Shown here: in pieces, positions 45,447 through 57,610 of the stretch
Numbering within the stretch: the first letter of the stretch is position 1
Layout: the number at the start of each line of letters is the position of its first letter
NCBI RefSeq assembly: GCF_031851795.1
Contig: NZ_CP134696.1
Location: forward strand, 7,440,001-7,504,000
Reading direction: 5' to 3'
Origin: Pontibacter sp. G13
GTDB lineage: Bacteria > Bacteroidota > Bacteroidia > J057
DNA: 64,000 nt
Program-made: the position numbers and the translations under genes
Notes under the pieces: generated by a model
Databases searched by the model: none
Seen by the model: the letters and a program-made list of their open reading frames with translations, nothing else
Told to the model about the DNA's origin: nothing

Positions 45447-45923
45447 CTATTTTAGCGAATGGATCTCAAATAGGTCCATATCACGCCTTCTCAAGCACGG
45501 GTCACAGATCATTTCTCCACTTGTATAATCTTCCTTCCTGATTAGTTCTCCATTTTCTGAATAGAATGTCCATATTCCCGATTCTCTTCCATTGTGGAAC
45601 TGGACGCTGTACTCAATGAGCCCATTGTCCCAGAAACGAATAAGTCTTACAATGGGATTGCCATTGACTTTAACAAAACCACCAAATCCCATATTTACAT
45701 AATTTCCATCGGCTACAAATATTTGATAATTAGGAGACCGATCCGAATCAGAAAGACCATAAGAAAATATTTCTATTCGGTAAAACCGAATATCTCCATA
45801 CCTATTTTTTAGGTGATGTGCCTTAGTGCTGTCGAAGGATTGTTCAAGGAATCCTTGAGACAGAACCCCTTTGGGGTACCCATTTGCTATTAGTGCCATA
45901 ATGGCAATGATGATCAATCTCAT
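45447..45923 (-). CDS. Small secreted YwqK/MORN-like protein, copy A
   Basis: 158 residues with signal peptide ('IIAIMALIANGYPKGVLSQG'). The C-terminal half has 'IRFWDNGLIEYSVQFHNGRE' and 'YSENGELIRKEDY', the repeated turn pattern of YwqK/MORN-2-like antitoxin-type modules, ending in 'CDPC'. A paralog at 55303-55767 has a nearly identical signal peptide and upstream DNA but a diverged middle. Function unknown. Confidence 0.65.
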   Translation of the reverse strand: MRLIIIAIMALIANGYPKGVLSQGFLEQSFDSTKAHHLKNRYGDIRFYRIEIFSYGLSDSDRSPNYQIFVADGNYVNMGFGGFVKVNGNPIVRLIRFWDNGLIEYSVQFHNGRESGIWTFYSENGELIRKEDYTSGEMICDPCLRRRDMDLFEIHSLK

Positions 45924-46290
45924 GGTTTTGGATATTTAATGGTTACTTTTCGATCTGGTTTTCTCTGCACTTCGGTAGTGGCTTGGCCTGACTTTCGCCT
46001 CATTCAGATATTTCTAAGTTTCGAGTTTTTGAGTCATTTGTATTAGAATGTTCTTGAGCAGCATTTGCCCTATTTTCGGGGGGATTTTTATTGTAGGCAT
46101 TTATCCTTTCCTCTTGGTGAGCCGAATTGTTCACGCGCCAGCGCAATTGCCGAAATCCGCCGCGCCGTCAAAGGGTCAAAGATCCTGCCCTGCGGGCGCC
46201 CAACCTACGACTCCCCTTGTTGTAAGGGTGAGATCCCGTATAAATTTCCCGGCCGCACGGGTTCCATCGGTTCGAAATTTTACGGGATGA
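45830..46290. repeat. Segmental duplication, left copy
   Basis: From the signal-peptide codons of the copy A gene through its upstream region (including GGCTTGGCCTGACTTTCGCC and CTATTTTCGGGGGGATTTTT) to the ACGGGATGACG end of a structured repeat. The same sequence recurs at 55674-56175 with only scattered differences and one extra block of about 40 bases there. The last 120 bases are one unit of the repeat that forms the 211-bp array at 56914. No gene is seen between 45924 and 46506. Confidence 0.85.
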
Positions 46291-46974: not shown

Positions 46975-47700
46975 CTAAGGCTCTAGTCCCAACTTGTCCC
47001 ATACCACACTGTCTGCAGTCAGTTCATTTTGAGAGGCAAAGGATTTCAGGCATTCAAGCTCCTCTGAGGCGGGATCAACCCATAATGGATTACCGGAAAT
47101 GGTCAGTCTGTTCAAACTATCCAGCCTACATACCGGGATGCTCAGTACGCCAAGGTTATTGTAGGCGAGGCTCAAGTCCTCCAATGCGGACAAGTTTTGT
47201 AAATGGGTAATGTGTGTAATGTCAGACCTGTTTACCGTCAATTGACGAAGCTGTGAGGGAAACCACTTTCCATCAATCGTATCTGAAAGGTTGGTACCCG
47301 AAAAACTGACTCCCCATAGGTTGGTCAGCGAGGACAGATCTGGTATTTCCTCCAATGCAGAATTATAGATACTTAAGGACCATAGCAAAGGAAACCGTCT
47401 TACGATTGAGATCTCTCGGACCTTGCAGTTAATAAGCTTTAATCCTTTTAGTCCGGAAAGGGTGGCAATTTCTTGCGGGAGCGTTTCTCCTGAATAGCCT
47501 TCCAAATCAATTCCAGTCACCTTACCTTGAGATTTTTGGAATGAGAGACTTCCATCGACAAAATGCTCATCCTCCGCCAATATCTGGAAAAAGCTCCTGT
47601 CAGGATCTTCAGGGCTGCCACAGCCCCATATCCCTGCGGTAAGAAGACAGGCAACCAAAAATGGCCTTTGAAAAAATCTGGTAGAAGTTGTTGAGCGCAT
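46975..47700 (-). CDS. Leucine-rich-repeat lipoprotein, tandem copy 2
   Basis: 241 residues from ATG 47700, which directly precedes the lipoprotein signal ending 'AGIWGC'; an ATG at 47730 would overlap the upstream gene. After 'HFVDGSLSF', irregular leucine-rich repeats run to the end ('LKGLKLINCKVREISI', 'LEDLSLAYNNLGVLSI', 'LNRLTISGNPLW'). It is paralogous along its whole length to the gene just upstream (47721). Probably a surface-exposed binding protein. Confidence 0.75.
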   Translation of the reverse strand: MRSTTSTRFFQRPFLVACLLTAGIWGCGSPEDPDRSFFQILAEDEHFVDGSLSFQKSQGKVTGIDLEGYSGETLPQEIATLSGLKGLKLINCKVREISIVRRFPLLWSLSIYNSALEEIPDLSSLTNLWGVSFSGTNLSDTIDGKWFPSQLRQLTVNRSDITHITHLQNLSALEDLSLAYNNLGVLSIPVCRLDSLNRLTISGNPLWVDPASEELECLKSFASQNELTADSVVWDKLGLEP

Positions 47701-47720
47701 AATTAAGAATAAAGGAATTT

Positions 47721-48494
47721 TCAGTACCACTGGGGCTGCAGGGCCTTTTGATCCGTTATGAATACGGGATGCTCCATGTCGGAGGGATCTAGAGAACTAA
47801 GATTTTTTAGACATCGGAAATCCAACGTATCCACTGATCCGAAGGGGTTACCCTCAATGTTGAGCGACCACAAACTGTTCAAAGCACAATACGCTTCAGG
47901 AAAATCGGCTAGTTGACAATCAGTAATCGCAAGCATTTTCAGATTCTCTAAATGGTTTAGATGAATGATATATTTAATCGGCGATTCCCTGATTATCAGG
48001 GAGGTTATGTTTGGGTTGAACCTACGAGCATCAACGGTGTCCTGTATCTGGGTTGAGGAAAATACTACATGATTAAGGGCTGGCATAGCACCAAGATTGG
48101 GCATTTTCTCCAGGGGTGTTCCTGAAACGATGACTGATTCGAGAGTAATCAATTGTTCGATGATGGATAGTGTTTTTAGTTTGCTTGTAGCGATCTCCAA
48201 ATGTCTGATGCTATCCAAAGCCCCGATTTCTATAGGCAAAGCCTCACCTTGGTAATCCTTCAGAGACAAAGAGGTGATATGGCCATCTTGGATTTTGATG
48301 GACAATGATCCATTTTGGAAATGTTCGTCTTGATCAAGGATATGCAACAATTCTCGATCTCTCGAAATATCAGGGCTACTACAACTTGATAAAACTGAAA
48401 TGATGAATATCAGCCCCAATAGTGCAATTCTAATGAAATAGGGATGATGTGGACTTATGTTCCGCCCTGTCAATATATTCATAAGGTTGGTCAT
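47721..48494 (-). CDS. Leucine-rich-repeat lipoprotein, tandem copy 1
   Basis: 257 residues from ATG 48494 (ATG 48482 is equally possible). The frame is open further upstream to 48650, but that part lies in a repeat element and is not coding. Lipobox 'SVLSSC', then the shared block 'DEHFQNGSLSI' and leucine-rich repeats ('IRHLEIATSKLKTLSI', 'LKMLAITDCQLADFP', 'LWSLNIEGNPF'). It is 20 bases from its paralog and likely co-transcribed with it. Its promoter must lie in or behind the repeat. Confidence 0.75.
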   Translation of the reverse strand: MTNLMNILTGRNISPHHPYFIRIALLGLIFIISVLSSCSSPDISRDRELLHILDQDEHFQNGSLSIKIQDGHITSLSLKDYQGEALPIEIGALDSIRHLEIATSKLKTLSIIEQLITLESVIVSGTPLEKMPNLGAMPALNHVVFSSTQIQDTVDARRFNPNITSLIIRESPIKYIIHLNHLENLKMLAITDCQLADFPEAYCALNSLWSLNIEGNPFGSVDTLDFRCLKNLSSLDPSDMEHPVFITDQKALQPQWY

Positions 48495-48504
48495 GTTCTC
48501 GCTC

Positions 48505-48680
48505 TTGTCGGGCATTAGAAATACCCGCTTGTGATGTGTCGTCCCTACAGGACTTAGGTCAAAGATCCTGCCCTTTGGGCGCTCAACCTGCGACTCCCCT
48601 TGTTGCAAGGGTGAGATCCCGTATAAATTTCCCGGCTGCACGGGTTCCAAGGCTTCGAAATTTTACGGGATGACGGAGTT
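48505..48680 (+). repeat. Structured repeat unit, isolated copy
   Basis: It contains TTGTGATGTGTCGTCCCTAC, GATCCTGCCCTTTGGGCGC, CTCCCCTTGTTGCAAGGG and ATTTTACGGGATGACGGAG, the same unit that forms the 211-bp tandem array at 56914-57575. It lies directly upstream of the tandem LRR lipoprotein genes. Confidence 0.8.
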
Positions 48681-48771: not shown

Positions 48772-51700
48772 CTACCGAATCAATGTCATGACCCCGCTGA
48801 TGACCCGTGTGGTTCCATCTTCCAGCCCGAAATCGAGGATCCAGGCATATGCGCCCTGGGGGAGGGGAGCGCCGCCATGGGTTCCATCCCAGACTGCCGA
48901 GGGATCCTGTGTGGAGAAGAGCAGCTGACCATTTCGTGCGAAGACCTGCCACCGGTACCGGGTGAATGGGCAGCCGCCGTGGATCGGGGAAATGGTCTCG
49001 TTGGGTCCGTCCCCGTTGGGGGAGAAGGCATTGGGGACCGTGATGGGACAACCACATGGGATTCGGCGGATCAGGAGGGTGTCGGCATCGGTCCCGCATT
49101 CATTCCATGCGCTGGCCCACACGGGTCCGGGCGCTTCCCAGAGGAAGTATTCGCCCCCCGATCCGTCCGGCCATGTGATGGCATCGGAGGACCATGCACG
49201 TACGCGTACGGGTGTGTCCTCGCAGGCGACGGAATCGCCTTCCAGCCGGATCTCGGGCTGCGCACCTGGATGGAGGAAGCGTTCGTCCGAGGCAGATCCG
49301 CAAACCGAACGGAGGACCACATGCAGATACCCCGGATTCCGGATGGTCCGGATCCCCCCGGAGAATCCATCCGCCCATTCGTAGGAGGCCCCTTCCATGC
49401 GGACATCGAAGAGGATGGAATCTCCCGGGCAGAGTACGGAATCGGGTCCGAGTTCGACTACCGGTCGGGGCAGTCCTTCCAGGATCAGTGTATCGGAGGC
49501 GGTCGCGCATGCGGTGGAAACCGCCACCCAGTAGGTGCCCCCTTCGGTGAATTCCCGGCGGGGTTCCGTGGTTCCGTCCTCCCATCGGTACGAGGCGGAT
49601 GCCTGCGCGACATCCACGATCCTCACGCTCCCCCCGCAAATGGCCTTGTCGGGTCCGAGCTCCGCGACCGGCGCGGGGGCATATCCGATGTTGATCCGTG
49701 CACTGTCCATGCAATGCAGGTTGGCGGTCCAGACGGAGTAGGTCCCGGCGGCGTCCACCCTGTATGAACCTCCGCCGGAACCGTCCCCCCAGCGGATGTC
49801 CTGTCCGGGAATGGCCGGAGCCAGTTCGAGGGTCTCCCCGAGGCAGAGGGTGGTGTCGTTTCCGAGGAAGGCGACCGGAACGGGAACCCGGGTGATGTCC
49901 ACCGAGTCGAGGAATGTCCCGCAGGCGTTGGAAACCGATATGGAGTATGTGCCCGTCGTCCCGACCTCCAGGGAGGCCAGGTCCGATCCATCCTGCCATC
50001 GGTAATCCCGTGCATCCACCATCGGGTCCAGGACCATCGGCTCCCCTTCGCAGGGGAGGCTGTCGGGTCCGAGATCGGGCTCAAGTGGAGTGTTGAATTC
50101 CAGCCGCACGGTGTCTGAGGCACTTCCGCAGAAGTTGGAGAGGGTGAGATGGAAGGTCCCGGTCCATGCCGCGGGGAACCTGCCGCCGGTTGCGCCATTC
50201 TGCCAGGCGTATTGCGAGAAGCCGTTTCCGGTGAATGCGGTTGCCAGCCAGAGGGTGTCCCCTTCGCAGAGGATGGAGTCCGGGCCGAGGTCCACCCATG
50301 GGTCCTCCTCGAACAGGACGGTCAGGGTGTCGAGGAATGTCCCGCAGAGATTGGCGGCCTCTACGATGTAGGTTCCCTGCTGGGTGACCGAGAGGGTGCT
50401 GTCGGTGGACCCATCCTGCCACAGGTAGGTTCCGAGATCGATGGATCCGTCCAGGACGATCGTATCCGAGGCGCAGAGCCATCGATCCGGCCCGAGATCG
50501 GGAGGTGTGGGGTCTACCAGCCGTATCTCCACGGTGTCGGTGGCCACGCCACAAACTCCGGAGGACTGTACCCAGTACGTCCCGGACTGCTGGACCGACA
50601 GGGTGTCCCAAAAGGAGCCTGTGGACCAGTTGTGGGAGAGGAGGCTATCGTGCTTGACAGCGAGCTCCAGTGGAGCGTCGGACTGGCAGAGGATGGTATC
50701 CGGCCCCAAATCCGCCAGAGGCACCGGGTCCACCCAGATGGAGTCCCTGAGGGTGTCGGGTTCGGGGCACCCCTGGTAGATCCATGCCTCTACCTCGTAC
50801 CAACCGGGAGTGGAAAAGGCATGGAGGACGGTGTCCCCGAGCAGGGTCGCGGTTGCCCCGTCGGGGAGGGTATCTCCCGGCCACCAACGGATGGAGTCCG
50901 GGTGGCGGACCGGAAAGTCCAGATGCATGGAAACGGGAACGCCCTCGCATACGGGACTGGAGCCGAGCGATATCTCCCGGGGCATGAAATAGAATGCGGG
51001 GAAGTGGGGCAAGTCGCCATTTGTGCCGTAGGGCCCCATAACGAAGGAGGAATCGGGGATAAACCCGCATCCGGGCCCCGGGATGTCCGGATTGGGGATA
51101 TTGCCCACGGTATGGAAGGCACTGGGAATGGGGGTGGTAGCTGGATAGTAGTGCCCGATAAATGGGGAGGCCAGATAAATCCGCCCATCCGGCCCCAGTT
51201 GCATGGCCGAATAGACCTGGAAAAGATACGTACCGAAGGCCGTCAGGCTGGGAGGATCCTGGTAGATCAGCTGGTTGGAGGCGAGCATCGCTGCCGCAGT
51301 GGATTGGGTCAGGTCGACCTGGTAGACCCTGTCGTAGTTGATATAATATAGTAGGTCCCCGTTGGGCGAGATCTCGATATCGTAGAATATGCCCACGACC
51401 CATGGTACGGGGGGAGGGGGGAATCCGGATACCGAGATCCAATTGGACAGGATGCCGGCGGCATTGTCGAAATCGAACACGTTCAAGATTTGGGACTCCC
51501 ATTGGGTGAATACGATCCGATCCCCCCGGATATTCGCCCGCATTCTGGAATGTACTATTTCTTGGTTTCCTTGTGATATCTGGATATTGAAAGGACTGAT
51601 TACCGGATTGGGATCGATCCCATTGGGATCCACCAAGTAGCTGTGCATGTCCCCGGTCGAGGTGTCGCAGGCGACCAGCCAGTAGTCCCTGCCATTGGCA

Positions 51701-52266
51701 TGTTGGACGGCGGTGATTCCAGGAGTGGTGGGTTCCATCAGGGAGAAAATGGAATCGGAGACAATTCCCCCGGCACCGCCATTGAGGTTCCGGTCATATA
51801 TGGCATAGACGAGAAACGGCTTTCCATTTTGGTTGGAATCTTGTCTTATGAACGTTGCTGCCAGATAGGCCCGGTCCGGATTGCCGGGGTCGGGGAAGGG
51901 CAGGAAGGCCTGCATAATACCCTCACCGAAAAAATTATAGATTGGCTGGTGAAATTCATTGAAGATGGTGTCCATCCATTCGTAAAGGAGCAGGTTGCCG
52001 CATGCGTCCGAAAGGGAGGTGCTGAAGATGCTTCCTCCCCCGGTCCCTCCCCAAGGATTATTTACCGGATAATGGACGGGGGTGGGATCCCCCTGGTGGA
52101 AGGACATGCCGGAAGTACCATATGCGTACCAATTGTAGGTCTCGGCCTGCCCGAGAACGCTGGATGGGGTTGCCGCCAGCCAGCCGAGGATGAGTATCCC
52201 GAGGCATAGGGGCCTGATGATTCCGGCAGGTCGGGCATCCCGGCCTTTTCCGAAGGTGAGGATCAT
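48772..52266 (-). CDS. Large secreted adhesin-like protein with type B T9SS (gliding-associated) C-terminal domain
   Basis: 1164 residues from ATG 52266, whose ATGA overlaps the upstream stop; ATG 52272 is also in frame. Signal peptide to about residue 40. A propeller-like N-terminal region covers about 45-430 ('NWYAYGTSGMSFHQGDPTP' onward). Then eight modules of about 70 residues, each starting like 'DLGPDSILCEGD' and ending like 'GTYSISVSNACGT', so each has a Cys pair. The last 90 residues ('NAFSPNGDGPNETI', 'VFARNGQLLF', 'WDGTHGGAPLPQGAY') are the CHU_C/type B sorting domain that attaches proteins to the cell surface. The DNA is far richer in G and C than its neighbours. Confidence 0.88.
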   Translation of the reverse strand: MILTFGKGRDARPAGIIRPLCLGILILGWLAATPSSVLGQAETYNWYAYGTSGMSFHQGDPTPVHYPVNNPWGGTGGGSIFSTSLSDACGNLLLYEWMDTIFNEFHQPIYNFFGEGIMQAFLPFPDPGNPDRAYLAATFIRQDSNQNGKPFLVYAIYDRNLNGGAGGIVSDSIFSLMEPTTPGITAVQHANGRDYWLVACDTSTGDMHSYLVDPNGIDPNPVISPFNIQISQGNQEIVHSRMRANIRGDRIVFTQWESQILNVFDFDNAAGILSNWISVSGFPPPPVPWVVGIFYDIEISPNGDLLYYINYDRVYQVDLTQSTAAAMLASNQLIYQDPPSLTAFGTYLFQVYSAMQLGPDGRIYLASPFIGHYYPATTPIPSAFHTVGNIPNPDIPGPGCGFIPDSSFVMGPYGTNGDLPHFPAFYFMPREISLGSSPVCEGVPVSMHLDFPVRHPDSIRWWPGDTLPDGATATLLGDTVLHAFSTPGWYEVEAWIYQGCPEPDTLRDSIWVDPVPLADLGPDTILCQSDAPLELAVKHDSLLSHNWSTGSFWDTLSVQQSGTYWVQSSGVCGVATDTVEIRLVDPTPPDLGPDRWLCASDTIVLDGSIDLGTYLWQDGSTDSTLSVTQQGTYIVEAANLCGTFLDTLTVLFEEDPWVDLGPDSILCEGDTLWLATAFTGNGFSQYAWQNGATGGRFPAAWTGTFHLTLSNFCGSASDTVRLEFNTPLEPDLGPDSLPCEGEPMVLDPMVDARDYRWQDGSDLASLEVGTTGTYSISVSNACGTFLDSVDITRVPVPVAFLGNDTTLCLGETLELAPAIPGQDIRWGDGSGGGSYRVDAAGTYSVWTANLHCMDSARINIGYAPAPVAELGPDKAICGGSVRIVDVAQASASYRWEDGTTEPRREFTEGGTYWVAVSTACATASDTLILEGLPRPVVELGPDSVLCPGDSILFDVRMEGASYEWADGFSGGIRTIRNPGYLHVVLRSVCGSASDERFLHPGAQPEIRLEGDSVACEDTPVRVRAWSSDAITWPDGSGGEYFLWEAPGPVWASAWNECGTDADTLLIRRIPCGCPITVPNAFSPNGDGPNETISPIHGGCPFTRYRWQVFARNGQLLFSTQDPSAVWDGTHGGAPLPQGAYAWILDFGLEDGTTRVISGVMTLIR

Positions 52267-54974
52267 TTCCATCTTACATTCAAGCTAGTTTGTATCATCC
52301 ATTCCGGGGTGGTTGCCCAGTCGGCGTCCCCGGAAAGGGGGTTGTGGCGGAACCTCCGGAGGGAGGTTTCCAGGAAGACATGCTTTCCGAAGGGCATCTG
52401 GGCCATGAGCCAGATGCCCGATTTGGCCTGTCGGGGAAATTCAGCCCGATAGTGCCATCCGGCAGAGAGATTCCATCCGTTTCCGGTCATTCCCTGCATC
52501 CCCACCTGCAGATCCCGGATATCCTGCTGCGCTCCCCCGAATTCGGTCTGGATCCAGGACCCTGCGGCAGTCAGGCCCAGTTGCCCCCAGGTGAGGACCT
52601 GGCTGATCCCCGCCATCTGGGAGATGAATCCAGGGGTGTCGTCCCGGCTCTGGATCTGGCGGGTCCATATGACATTCCCGGAGCCGGTCAACTGTCCCCT
52701 TGCCCACTGGTGGGAAGCCTGGACGGAGATCAGGGAATGGGAGACTTCTGTCTGCGCCACGCTGTCAACTGGGGAAATGGTCCTGAAAAACGGGGCATAG
52801 GACAGCGTGAATCCCAGTCCGGATTTGGGATGGAATTGGACATGTCCCCCGGCGCTCTGGGAGATGGACCGCCGGACGGGGCCCGGCAGGTCGAATGGAC
52901 TCAGGTCCTCCCGGTAATGGGCGCCGACTCCGAGGCGTCCCTGCCAGAACCGCTGGTCCAACTGGAGGGACTTGTGGTTCCGCTGTATGAGGAGGGGAGC
53001 CCCCAGGGAGGCGTAGGATGCGTCCGATTGGGTCATCGTGGCCGACAGTTGGTTTCCGGGGAATGGGCGTACCCCCATCTGGATCTGCCAGGAGTTCCCC
53101 GATTGGTCGGTGGGGGCTGGAATCCGGAGGGTGTCGGACCCGGTCGCGTCATCCGGCAAGGTCGGGCGGAGCATGGACCTGAACCAATTCCCCGAAATCT
53201 GGATCCGGTCCTTTCCGAGGGAGCCGTTTGCCTGGAGCCCGGCCAGCAAATTGGTGTTCAGGTATCCGGAGACGGGCGGGCCTCCGGTGTTCCAGGGCAT
53301 GGGCCGCTCATCGATCCAGATGGCCATGCCCGTGACCTGGAGGGATTCCCGGACCCGGATACCGAGCTTTCCCGCCACCACCTTTGGCTTGGGCCGGTCC
53401 TGTTCGGTGCTGTCGAGCTGCCAGATCATCGGCATCAGTTCGCCGACGGTGACTCCCAGTTCCCATGGGCCCGGCGCATATACCATGTCCATTCCCCGGA
53501 CTCCGATCCCATCCAGCGTATTCGAGGAATAGCTGGGGAATACCGTCCCGACTTGCATGGTCCGGATATCGGACATGATCCTTTCCGCCTTGGACAGCGC
53601 CCCGACCTTGCCCAGCATCCCCGGATTGGCGAGCATGCCGGCCAATGAGGTGGCATCGAGCGAGTCTGCCTTCGCGGCCATTTCTATGATCTCCAGATAG
53701 GGGGCCAGATCCCCTGCTAGGAGTTCCAGTTCCCGGTATCGGGTATCCAGGCTGTCCAGATGGTCGCACTGCCGGCATTGCCGGTGCCAGTACCGGAGGG
53801 CTTCCGGATCGGCCTGGCCGAGGGAGTCCGAGAAGTGGGCCAGTTCCGTGGAATCGGCATGCGGATATCGGGTGCGGAATGCACGGCATGAATCCATCAA
53901 TGCCTGATATTCCGGCGCATTTTGGACTTTCCGGAGGTTCAGGTATTGCCTGTACATCTGGAGGTCCTGCCGGAGCAGCGAATCCCCGGCCAGTTCTTCC
54001 CAGCCGCCGTATCCGAGCCCGCGTGCCCGGTCGTCCGCGGTTCCGAGTATCTGCGCCAATTCCTGTTCCCTGAGGCTGGACAGCGATTGGTACCATTCGC
54101 TTCCCTTCCGGTGCTTGTCCCTCAGCCCCCGGACGCGATCGTCCTGCCCGAGATGGGATAGGATTTCCCGTTCCTCCGCCCGGATGGCCGCTTCGGCCTT
54201 GGCGCGCAACCGGCTGAGCAATGCCGCACGGTCCAGACCGAGGTTGATCCGGTTCATGCGGTAGGAGAACTGCTCATTTTCCGTGGAATAATGGATCTGG
54301 GCCGTAAGGGGGATGCCGAAAGCCGTCACCCTGGGGGCCGCCTCGAACCGCAGGTACCGGGTGACCGGAGGGGGAAATCCGATGGAAAGGCCCGGCGGTT
54401 CCGGAAGGGTGGAATATTGGCCGGTCAGGCGGAATGAGCCGCCGATAGAGAACTGCGAATTGCGTCTGTCCCATACCTCTTCCGCCCCTTCCCGCAGCCG
54501 GGAAAATGCCTTCTGCCGATACCAGTGTACATTCCTGCATGCCGTGGCGAGTTCCTCCCGGGTATCGCCGTCCAGGAGGAAAATGCAGAGCTGGTAGACT
54601 CCGGTCTGCAGGGAATCCAACCCGCCGGCGGATTGCGCACCGTATTGCATCGGGGTGGGCGGCAGGCCGATCTCCCGGTAGTCCAGGGCATTGCTGCCGG
54701 CCTGAATAACGGGGCTCTCCCAGCTCATGCGCAATGAGCCCCGGTTGTCGGTCAGGTAGGCCTCCATCTTCAGGCGACGGCTCCCCACGGTCCCGAGGAT
54801 CTCCACACGGAATACATCCTGCACCTGGAAGGTCGTGGGCACCTGCAACGGAAACCGTATGACCGATTGCGCCACGAGGGAATGTCCCGTGATCCAGATA
54901 CAGCATGCAAGGAGGAGGTGCTTCAAGGGGCGGTGTTTTGTCCGGGTTGCGGGAAATATCCCATTGGATGGCAA
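52263..54974 (-). CDS. Large outer-membrane-barrel-like protein, partner of the type B T9SS protein
   Basis: 903 residues. Signal peptide 1-35 ('LKHLLLACCIWITGHSLVAQ'). N-terminal beta domain to about residue 230, a charged helical middle (about 250-460, rich in Arg/Glu/Asp with 'CRQCDHLDSLD'), and a C-terminal half of alternating amphipathic strands ('KLGIRVRESLQVTGMAIWI', 'WNLSAGWHYRAEF', 'MIQTSLNVRW') that looks like a beta-barrel. It does not match the roughly 330-residue PorP/SprF proteins that usually accompany type B substrates. The stop overlaps the next start (ATGA), implying coupled translation. GC-rich like its partner. Family not recognised. Confidence 0.68.
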   Translation of the reverse strand: MPSNGIFPATRTKHRPLKHLLLACCIWITGHSLVAQSVIRFPLQVPTTFQVQDVFRVEILGTVGSRRLKMEAYLTDNRGSLRMSWESPVIQAGSNALDYREIGLPPTPMQYGAQSAGGLDSLQTGVYQLCIFLLDGDTREELATACRNVHWYRQKAFSRLREGAEEVWDRRNSQFSIGGSFRLTGQYSTLPEPPGLSIGFPPPVTRYLRFEAAPRVTAFGIPLTAQIHYSTENEQFSYRMNRINLGLDRAALLSRLRAKAEAAIRAEEREILSHLGQDDRVRGLRDKHRKGSEWYQSLSSLREQELAQILGTADDRARGLGYGGWEELAGDSLLRQDLQMYRQYLNLRKVQNAPEYQALMDSCRAFRTRYPHADSTELAHFSDSLGQADPEALRYWHRQCRQCDHLDSLDTRYRELELLAGDLAPYLEIIEMAAKADSLDATSLAGMLANPGMLGKVGALSKAERIMSDIRTMQVGTVFPSYSSNTLDGIGVRGMDMVYAPGPWELGVTVGELMPMIWQLDSTEQDRPKPKVVAGKLGIRVRESLQVTGMAIWIDERPMPWNTGGPPVSGYLNTNLLAGLQANGSLGKDRIQISGNWFRSMLRPTLPDDATGSDTLRIPAPTDQSGNSWQIQMGVRPFPGNQLSATMTQSDASYASLGAPLLIQRNHKSLQLDQRFWQGRLGVGAHYREDLSPFDLPGPVRRSISQSAGGHVQFHPKSGLGFTLSYAPFFRTISPVDSVAQTEVSHSLISVQASHQWARGQLTGSGNVIWTRQIQSRDDTPGFISQMAGISQVLTWGQLGLTAAGSWIQTEFGGAQQDIRDLQVGMQGMTGNGWNLSAGWHYRAEFPRQAKSGIWLMAQMPFGKHVFLETSLRRFRHNPLSGDADWATTPEWMIQTSLNVRWK

Positions 54975-55302: not shown

Positions 55303-55767
55303 TCAAGGCGAGATTCCAAATATCACCATATTGTCCAGACTATTGCAGGGGTCACAAACCATTTTTCCGCTTGTATAATCTTCCTTTCTGATCAATTCTC
55401 CATCTTCTGAGTAGAAAACCCATACACCATACTTTTCACCATTTTGAAATTGTACACAGCACCTAATAAGCCCATTGTCCCAAAATTCAATGAACCTCAT
55501 ACTAGGGTTTCCATATACATTCCAACTCGCGCCGAATTCTGTTGCATTATCCGTACTGGATATACTATATATTTGAGATCTGTTCGAATCTGATTCAGGG
55601 TAGGAATATATCTTAATAGCAGTAGTTTGAGGGTTTCCTGATTGATCAATTCCCCACCTTCTTACAGCTATGCTGTCGAAGAATTGTTCATGGAATCCTT
55701 GAGACAGAACCCCTTTGGGGTACCAATTTGCTATTAGTGCCATAATGGCAATGATGATCAATCTCAT
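55303..55767 (-). CDS. Small secreted YwqK/MORN-like protein, copy B
   Basis: 154 residues. Signal peptide almost identical to that of copy A ('IIAIMALIANWYPKGVLSQG'). The middle differs from copy A, but the C-terminal 'FWDNGLIRCCVQFQNGEKYG' and 'YSEDGELIRKEDYTSGKMVC' are conserved. The upstream 400 bases are nearly identical to those of copy A, so both probably share one promoter type. Function unknown. Confidence 0.65.
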   Translation of the reverse strand: MRLIIIAIMALIANWYPKGVLSQGFHEQFFDSIAVRRWGIDQSGNPQTTAIKIYSYPESDSNRSQIYSISSTDNATEFGASWNVYGNPSMRFIEFWDNGLIRCCVQFQNGEKYGVWVFYSEDGELIRKEDYTSGKMVCDPCNSLDNMVIFGISP

Positions 55768-56175
55768 GGTTTTGGATATTTAATGGTTACTTTTCGATCT
55801 GGTTTTCTCTGCACTTCGGTAGTGGCTTGGCCTGACTTTCGCCTCATTCAGATATTTCTGAGTTTCGAGTTTTTGGGCCATTTGTATTAGAATGTTCTTG
55901 AGCAGCATTTGCCCTATTTTCGGGGGGATTTTTATTGTAGGCATTTTTCCTTTCCTCTTGGAGAGCCGAATTGCTCCACGCGCCAGCGCAATTGCCGAAA
56001 TCCGGTTCAGCCAAAGGGGGGCAGCGCAATTACCGAAATCCGCCGCGCCGTCAAAGGGTGAAAGATCCTGCCCTGCGGGCGCCCAACCTGCGACTCCCCT
56101 TGTTGTAAGGGTGAGATCCCGTATAAATTTCCCGGCTGCACGGATGCCATCGCTTCGAAATTTTACGGGATGACG
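55674..56175. repeat. Segmental duplication, right copy
   Basis: Duplicate of 45830-46290, covering the start of the copy B gene, its upstream region and one structured repeat unit. It differs mainly by an inserted block at about 56000-56040 that itself duplicates GCGCAATTGCCGAAATCCG-like sequence. A further truncated repeat head continues to about 56280. Apart from repeats nothing is seen from 55768 to 56355. Confidence 0.85.
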
Positions 56176-56874: not shown

Positions 56875-56913
56875 GAATTTATGTTTTGAAGAAAAGCCGG
56901 GCCAAAATTAAAC

Positions 56914-57575
56914 CGCTTGTGATGTGTCGTCCCTACAGGACTTGGGTCAAAGATCCTGCCCTGGGGGCGCCCAACCTGCGACTCCCCTTGTTGCAAGGGT
57001 GAGATCCCGTATAAATTTCCCGGCTGCTCGGATGCCATCGCTTCGAAATTTTACGGGATGACGCAGCTTTTTGGGGTGGAAGCCGGATTGTCCGCTTATG
57101 CTGTTGTCGGGCATTAGAAATACCCGGTTGTGATGTGTCGTCCCTACAGGACTTGGATCAAAGATCCTGCCCTTTGGGCGCCCAACCTGCGACTCCCCTT
57201 GTTGTAAGGGTGAGATCCCGTATAAATTTCCCAGCTGCACGGGTGCCATCGCTTCGAAATTTTACGGGATGACGGAGTTTTTTTGGGTGGAATCCGGATT
57301 GTCCGCTCATGCTGTTATCGGGCATTAGAAATACCCGCTTGTGATGTGTCGTCCCTACAGGACTTGGATCAAAGATCCTGCCCTTTGGGCACCCAACCTA
57401 CGACTCCCCTTGTTGTAAGGGTGAGATCCCGTATAAATTTCCCTGCCGCACGGATGCCATCGCTTCGAAATTTTACGGGATGACGCAGTTTTTTTGGGTG
57501 GAAGCCGGATTGTCCGCTTATGTTGTTATCGGGCATTAGAAATACCCGGTTGTGATGTGTCGTCCCTACAGGACT
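56914..57575 (+). repeat. Tandem array of a structured 211-bp repeat
   Basis: Units at 56914-57124, 57125-57335 and 57336-57546, plus the first 29 bases of a fourth. The marker GTCCCTACAG lies at 56929, 57140, 57351 and 57562, spaced exactly 211 bases, and GATCCTGCCC at 56952, 57163 and 57374, again 211. Each unit holds small hairpins: GCCC-TTT-GGGC, CCCTTG-TTG-CAAGGG, and a longer stem between ATCCCGTATAAATTTC and GAAATTTTACGGGAT. Single units occur at 46166, 48505 and 56055. Frames on the minus strand are non-coding. The array abuts the ssrA terminator. Confidence 0.9.
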
Positions 57576-57610
57576 TGGGGCAACGCGCCTGCCGAAATCC
57601 GGTCCAGCCA

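Follow-up and report, generated by a model that had tools for sequence, protein, structure and literature searches.

The outer-membrane barrels known as PorP/SprF shuttles (PF11751; SprF, PorP, Fjoh_1677) are encoded next to genes with a type B CTD. The known shuttles recognize the CTD, are encoded directly downstream of their substrate and are ~330 aa long, and in F. johnsoniae 3 of the 12 type B substrates are orphans using one common shuttle (PMC12618676). Type B proteins are anchored by PorP/SprF-like barrels (PMC9143113). Rhs and other polymorphic toxin loci are likewise already known as a kind, including an SpvB-TcdB export class (Zhang et al., 2012; PMC3482391), and a version with T2SS genes has been noticed in one species. 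The F. psychrophilum CC-ST10 island carries T2SS genes (GspD, E and G), an OmpH/Skp chaperone and giant Rhs/ABC-toxin-like proteins, and dedicated translocation was proposed by its authors (PMC5808330). TANFOR polymorphic toxins (PMC7073777) also form Bacteroidota toxin loci, with T9SS substrates enriched nearby and with Ig/Fn3-rich proteins.

Here, a stretch of 64,000 nucleotides (the window) was analyzed, in which the gene of a giant barrel protein, BAR (P0002), adjoins the gene of a type B T9SS substrate (P0001). This arrangement resembles that of the PorP/SprF shuttles; however, BAR has about 900 aa, is encoded upstream, contains an N-domain and an inserted helical domain, and has no PF11751 match. 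Relatives of BAR head a locus that, compared by description only, shares with the CC-ST10 island the OmpH/Skp chaperone and the giant Rhs/ABC-toxin-like proteins, but no BAR-family barrel is described in that island. As in the Rhs polymorphic toxin systems, one giant protein of the locus (giant B) has RHS repeats, an Rhs core and DUF6443, and on contig C2 of this genome an orphan Rhs tip and small genes come after it. In contrast to those systems, the locus has a second giant (giant A) with no Pfam, NCBIfam or PDB fold match, and the set of barrel, chaperone and carrier was not found in the passages of PMC3482391 that were consulted. A link to TANFOR was rejected, as TIGR02542 was matched by no protein tested. 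A search of the open-access journal literature found nothing naming the BAR family or the barrel-type locus, and nothing linking the barrel or DUF6443 to a function. The reading that we favor, at a probability of about 0.45, is that BAR may serve an Rhs export locus as its exit or docking port in the outer membrane, and that the BAR of the window became detached and coupled to a type B adhesin.

The gene pair and the predicted barrel

Both genes lie on the minus strand, with the BAR gene upstream and coupled to that of P0001 (Table 1). The overlap measures 10 nt if P0001 starts at the listed ATG (52272), and a start at the in-frame ATG that follows (52266) leaves a 4-nt overlap, ATGA; the ATGA-style overlap described in the first-pass annotation is thus present. 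BAR has 903 aa when read from TTG 54974 and about 887 aa from TTG 54926. The latter is probably the true start, because a normal signal peptide (KHLLLACCIWITGHSLVAQ) is then N-terminal. The GC3 values of the two genes are 0.73 and 0.76, whereas every other window ORF of at least 90 aa has 0.67 or less and most flanking small genes have 0.32-0.50, which agrees with the unusual composition claimed earlier for the pair.

Table 1. Coordinates of the BAR gene, the adhesin gene and their parts in the window.
Feature	Position	Strand	Evidence or remarks
BAR (P0002), giant outer-membrane barrel protein gene (predicted)	52263..54974	-	ORF listing, AlphaFold
BAR N-terminal beta domain, residues 37-151	54522..54866	-	AF2 strands, low to medium pLDDT
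First BAR barrel strands, residues 175-247	54234..54452	-	AlphaFold
Charged helical domain between barrel strands, residues 249-468	53571..54230	-	AlphaFold; 30% DEKR over 251-470
Remaining BAR barrel, residues 470-902	52269..53567	-	About 22 long antiparallel strands, pLDDT mostly >=90
P0002/P0001 gene overlap, ATGGAAATGA	52263..52272	-	
P0001, predicted type B T9SS substrate, 1166 aa	48772..52272	-	Signal peptide, beta-rich head, eight ~70-aa Ig-like repeats, CHU_C CTD
P0001 head, residues 41-435	50968..52152	-	44% identical to C2 copy; related to G002 head
Mosaic breakpoint at codon 593, where stalk repeat 2 begins	50496	-	55% nucleotide identity to C2 upstream, 93% downstream
P0001 stalk, eight repeats of 69-72 aa	49045..50712	-	Repeat starts 521, 592, 661, 733, 802, 871, 940, 1009
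P0001 type B CTD, residues 1077-1166	48775..49044	-	CHU_C/TIGR04131; 92% identical to C2 copy

The pair and several small secreted-like genes are flanked by direct repeats of 97% identity (window 45827-46126 and 55671-55970, 9,844 bp apart), and the small genes at 45447-45923 and 55303-55767 are paralogues (53%). A dispersed intergenic repeat family, with pieces of about 50-260 nt, occurs at window 46139, 48522, 56022, 56910, 57121 and 57332, in tandem with 211-bp spacing at 56913-57593, and at no fewer than 100 other places in the genome; because of this spread, the flanking repeats were rejected as the signature of an Rhs immunity array. Directly downstream of the pair lie two overlapping leucine-rich-repeat-like lipoprotein genes (46975-47730 and 47721-48650), which are 32% identical.

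P0002 had no above-cut-off match in Pfam or NCBIfam and none in a PDB sequence search, and no Pfam model was shared among 36 aligned relatives. Membership in PorP/SprF was rejected, since PF11751 did not match and hhalign gave a probability of 0.7%. By these searches, the family to which BAR belongs lacks a Pfam name and has no relation to PorP/SprF, and its separateness from PorP/SprF, which had been suspected from the first reading, was borne out. The AlphaFold model of BAR alone (37 aligned relatives; mean pLDDT 74, pTM 0.62) reproduced the beta domain, the charged helical middle and the barrel-like end that had been proposed for the 903-residue protein, with a confident barrel of about 25 strands, a count that, like the closure of the barrel, is approximate. 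The best Foldseek matches were the large outer-membrane barrels SlpA, MtrB, LptD and FimD (E 1e-8 to 1e-5), which have a large antiparallel barrel in common with BAR but only 6-12% identity and TM-scores of at most 0.44. MtrB has 26 strands, and large cargo passes FimD and LptD. BAR is thus predicted to be an outer-membrane barrel with no close solved relative in the PDB; with TM-scores this low, we only infer that it has an open channel and a channel function. The last residue is W or F in 44 of the 64 family members, and W/F is the usual last residue in outer-membrane proteins. BAR and the Ig-like protein that comes after it in Rhs loci have homologous N-domains: the IG profile matches P0002 residues 20-149 at E=4.4e-5, and other BAR members down to 1.7e-22.

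The Foldseek list also includes TonB receptors and porins. Together with the foreign composition of the pair and the 97%-identity repeats that bracket a 9.8-kb segment, this would fit a horizontally acquired surface cassette, with BAR as an ordinary uptake channel and the adhesin as its ligand-capturing partner. We regard such a cassette as improbable, as neither a plug or TonB box nor a SusD-like neighbour was recognized, and the family is stably linked to Rhs, chaperone and carrier genes and not to catabolic genes.

The downstream protein matches CHU_C with 46.3 bits (cut-off 27) and TIGR04131 with 39.5 (cut-off 35), both at its C-terminus. As the first-pass annotation had it, P0001 is by these profiles a type B T9SS substrate, a predicted secreted surface adhesin. 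The same annotation expected such a substrate normally to be paired with a PorP/SprF protein, but this expectation fared badly in the genome at hand, where there are 33 CHU_C proteins and only 4 PorP_SprF (PF11751) genes, with one adjacent pair.

The BAR family and its Rhs locus

A BAR profile found matches in 98 of 395 genomes of the class, some of them shorter barrel-only matches. In blastp searches P0002 matched 21 of 27 diverse BAR members, and it is homologous over its full length to the Rhs-locus barrels. Inspection of the neighbourhoods of 20 strong profile hits, and of those in close relatives, revealed a recurring Bacteroidota locus with the order BAR, Ig-like protein (about 370 aa), OmpH/Skp-like chaperone (PF03938, 2.6e-14), lipoprotein-like protein (about 200 aa), giant A (about 2,200 aa), LolA-like carrier (LolA3-like at 1.2e-17, below cut-off) and giant B (Rhs). 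DUF6443 and RHS_repeat (PF05593) are above cut-off in giant B, and the Rhs core TIGR03696 scored 31.3 (cut-off 32.5) in the giant B of C2. Giant A matched no model in Pfam or NCBIfam; an identity as an SpvB/TcB-like shell is not claimed, there being no PDB fold match at E<=0.001. Among the giants scanned, no T9SS CTD was detected.

When homologs were found via BAR itself, Rhs-locus genes lay within 6 ORFs in 24 of 26 cases, the exceptions being genome G002, where the contig ends, and L109. Conversely, when named genomes were scanned with an alignment of the conserved N-terminal part of giant A, at least 546 relatives turned up, and in the best 80 of these loci BAR was present in 37, immediately before the Ig gene in 34. 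On catalogued plasmids no BAR was found, and giant A was found on nine. The giant-A/OmpH/Rhs locus is carried by the named plasmids pAT2 of Aureibacter tunicatorum and plasm2 of Bernardetia sp. MNP-M8 (37 kb, with ParAB) (L213, L214), in which the locus proteins are mostly annotated "hypothetical". In the present genome, contig C3 (L212 2338-10264) has a pair of genes distantly resembling giants A and B (E 2e-12 and 2e-35).

The window itself contains none of the Rhs, giant A, Ig, OmpH, LolA-like and lipoprotein genes of the locus, and tblastn found no remnant of them; a decayed Rhs locus in the window was therefore rejected. With the Rhs, giant A, Ig and lipoprotein genes missing, the barrel of the window may act otherwise than its relatives do.

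Unlike PorP/SprF genes, most BAR homologs have no type B neighbour, and Rhs-locus genes adjoin them instead, contrary to the pairing foreseen in the first-pass annotation. In only three cases, all of the same family, did a type B gene come directly after BAR, namely the window, C2 and G002; in G002 the type B call rests on the head (28% identity over 742 aa), as the contig ends before the CTD. On the other side of BAR, a type B gene was found in L108 (same strand) and in L174 and L192 (divergent). G002 also encodes short BAR relatives of 558 and 598 aa (L210 5693-10527, L211 5829-13468), which directly precede Ig proteins of 1047 and 1945 aa. Judged by gene order, these short barrels and large Ig proteins appear to be a second pairing of a barrel with a surface protein.

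A second copy and a mosaic adhesin gene

Besides the copy in the window, the genome (7.67 Mb, 3 contigs) encodes a single further BAR, which lies on the 43-kb plasmid-like contig C2 together with a ParA-like gene. There, too, BAR is followed on the same strand by a type B protein, and the pair is divergent from an adjoining Rhs locus with Ig, lipoprotein, giant A, LolA-like and giant B genes, among which no OmpH gene was labelled. The frame of giant A on C2 is interrupted (L003 15767-15888), and the barrel ORF starts without a recognizable start codon and signal peptide; each may reflect decay or an assembly error. Giant B is followed (L054 12910-15773) by a 187-aa gene, an orphan Rhs tip, in which the Rhs core TIGR03696 scores 45.3 (cut-off 32.5), and a lipoprotein-like gene, as would be usual for a displaced toxin/immunity cassette.

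The two BAR proteins are 40% identical. Between their type B neighbours, identity is 44% over the head, 55% over the stretch that follows and 92-93% over the stalk and CTD, and the similarity of window and C2 ends at the stop codon of the adhesin. A two-segment fit placed the breakpoint within the stalk (Table 1) with a log-likelihood gain of 357. Across it, identity at fourfold-degenerate sites rises from mostly 0.4-0.55 to mostly 0.7-0.96, and because these sites change too, the identity of stalk and CTD reflects recombination and not selection. The GC3 of the C2 copy is 0.74 in the stalk, against 0.52 in BAR and 0.62 in the head. This contrast suggests that the type B gene of C2 is a chimaera whose stalk and CTD came from a source resembling the window copy. 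CTDs that are 92% identical beside barrels that are 40% identical indicate that the barrel is apparently not matched to the CTD, while the head stayed with the barrel. For these two copies, we infer that the head is the part linked to BAR.

These comparisons bear on the idea that BAR serves type B substrates as a novel shuttle or anchor, functionally replacing PorP/SprF. Given that PorP-like barrels anchor type B proteins (PMC9143113), the idea was a reasonable one, and it would agree with the translational coupling in the window, with the same-strand neighbours in C2 and G002, and with the many type B proteins of this genome that have no linked PorP/SprF gene. Nevertheless, most BAR homologs have no type B gene to serve, the barrels have diverged far beyond the CTDs that known shuttles recognize, BAR differs from these shuttles in size and gene order and has no profile similarity to them, and orphan type B proteins can use a common unlinked shuttle (PMC12618676). 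We consider a role as such a replacement quite unlikely. These sequence comparisons favor viewing the pair as an offshoot of the Rhs-locus barrel family over viewing it as a new device for anchoring type B proteins. Of the first-pass annotation, the pair, the barrel, the distinction from PorP/SprF and the composition stood, and the expected PorP/SprF partnership proved weak. Of the two findings that it had named as refuting its proposal, BAR homologs lacking an adjacent type B gene did turn up, whereas the predicted structure does contain a barrel. Its proposal of a new display or anchoring device lost ground through the homologs and the 92% versus 40% identities, and retains the prospect of display via the head.

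Type II secretion and a candidate exit port

T2SS core genes occur in 8 of the same 80 best giant-A loci and never with BAR; in L181, for example, the secretin and the ATPase matched at 3.6e-35 and 3.5e-126. BAR, full-length or as a fragment, occurs without T2SS genes in 39 of the 80, and no T2SS gene was found within the stretches examined of BAR-type loci. The exclusion of BAR and T2SS has p=0.005, and genome-wide a secretin was found in 0 of 17 genomes with a BAR-type giant-A locus versus 13 of 17 with a BAR-less one (p=5e-6), both p values ignoring kinship although the genome groups are phylogenetically clustered. One of these 13 genomes (L134, the same assembly as G224) carries BAR elsewhere. 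Among genomes sampled through BAR first, a secretin was present at a rate equal to that of BAR-negative controls (6 of 32 versus 6 of 28), so that absence of the secretin from all barrel genomes was rejected. The only secretin of the present genome lies on C3, and this, together with the 6 of 32, means that the exclusion of BAR and secretin is not absolute. The distribution supports the view that BAR-type loci would not need a secretin, and that BAR-less ones usually come with one.

BAR might instead be a surface scaffold that anchors the Ig-like protein, the Rhs complex or the adhesin head, while export takes another route. The homology of its N-domain to the Ig protein of the next gene, its pairing with different surface proteins (with the Ig protein of Rhs loci, with large Ig proteins in G002 and with the type B adhesin in the window) and the co-divergence of head and barrel all speak for a scaffold. 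However, no secretin was found in the 17 barrel-type genomes outside this family, and the scanned giants have no detected T9SS CTD; lacking both, they need some route through the outer membrane, and none other than BAR was found. On balance, a scaffold with export elsewhere seems unlikely to us.

We consider an exit or docking port for the Rhs giants more likely than a new way of anchoring adhesins. With BAR as such a port, giants A and B, which have hydrophobic N-termini, would cross the inner membrane by Sec, be kept in the periplasm by the Skp-like chaperone and the LolA-like carrier, and exit or be displayed at the surface via BAR, which would take the place that a type II secretin has where the locus lacks the barrel. 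The BAR of the window would have been separated from the Rhs genes and become translationally coupled to the type B adhesin. For its own export the adhesin would use the T9SS, probably together with an unlinked PorP/SprF shuttle encoded elsewhere in the genome, and its head, having co-diverged with the barrel, would dock at or near BAR on the outside.

It is possible, though rather doubtful, that these loci represent as a whole an undescribed Bacteroidota export route for giant Rhs proteins, in which a ~25-strand barrel with a helical insertion, a dedicated Skp chaperone and a LolA-like carrier would be evolutionarily interchangeable with a type II secretin, and that in one family the barrel has become detached and joined to a T9SS adhesin whose head is matched to it and whose stalk and CTD are freely exchanged. 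For the passage of giant Rhs proteins across the outer membrane of Bacteroidota, the conserved unnamed barrel offers a concrete candidate exit port, since the scanned giants have no T9SS tail and the sampled genomes with BAR-type loci outside this family mostly have no secretin. The alternation with type II secretion genes makes the exit-port idea testable genetically, and the mosaic adhesin is a natural test of which region in a type B protein is matched to its neighbour.
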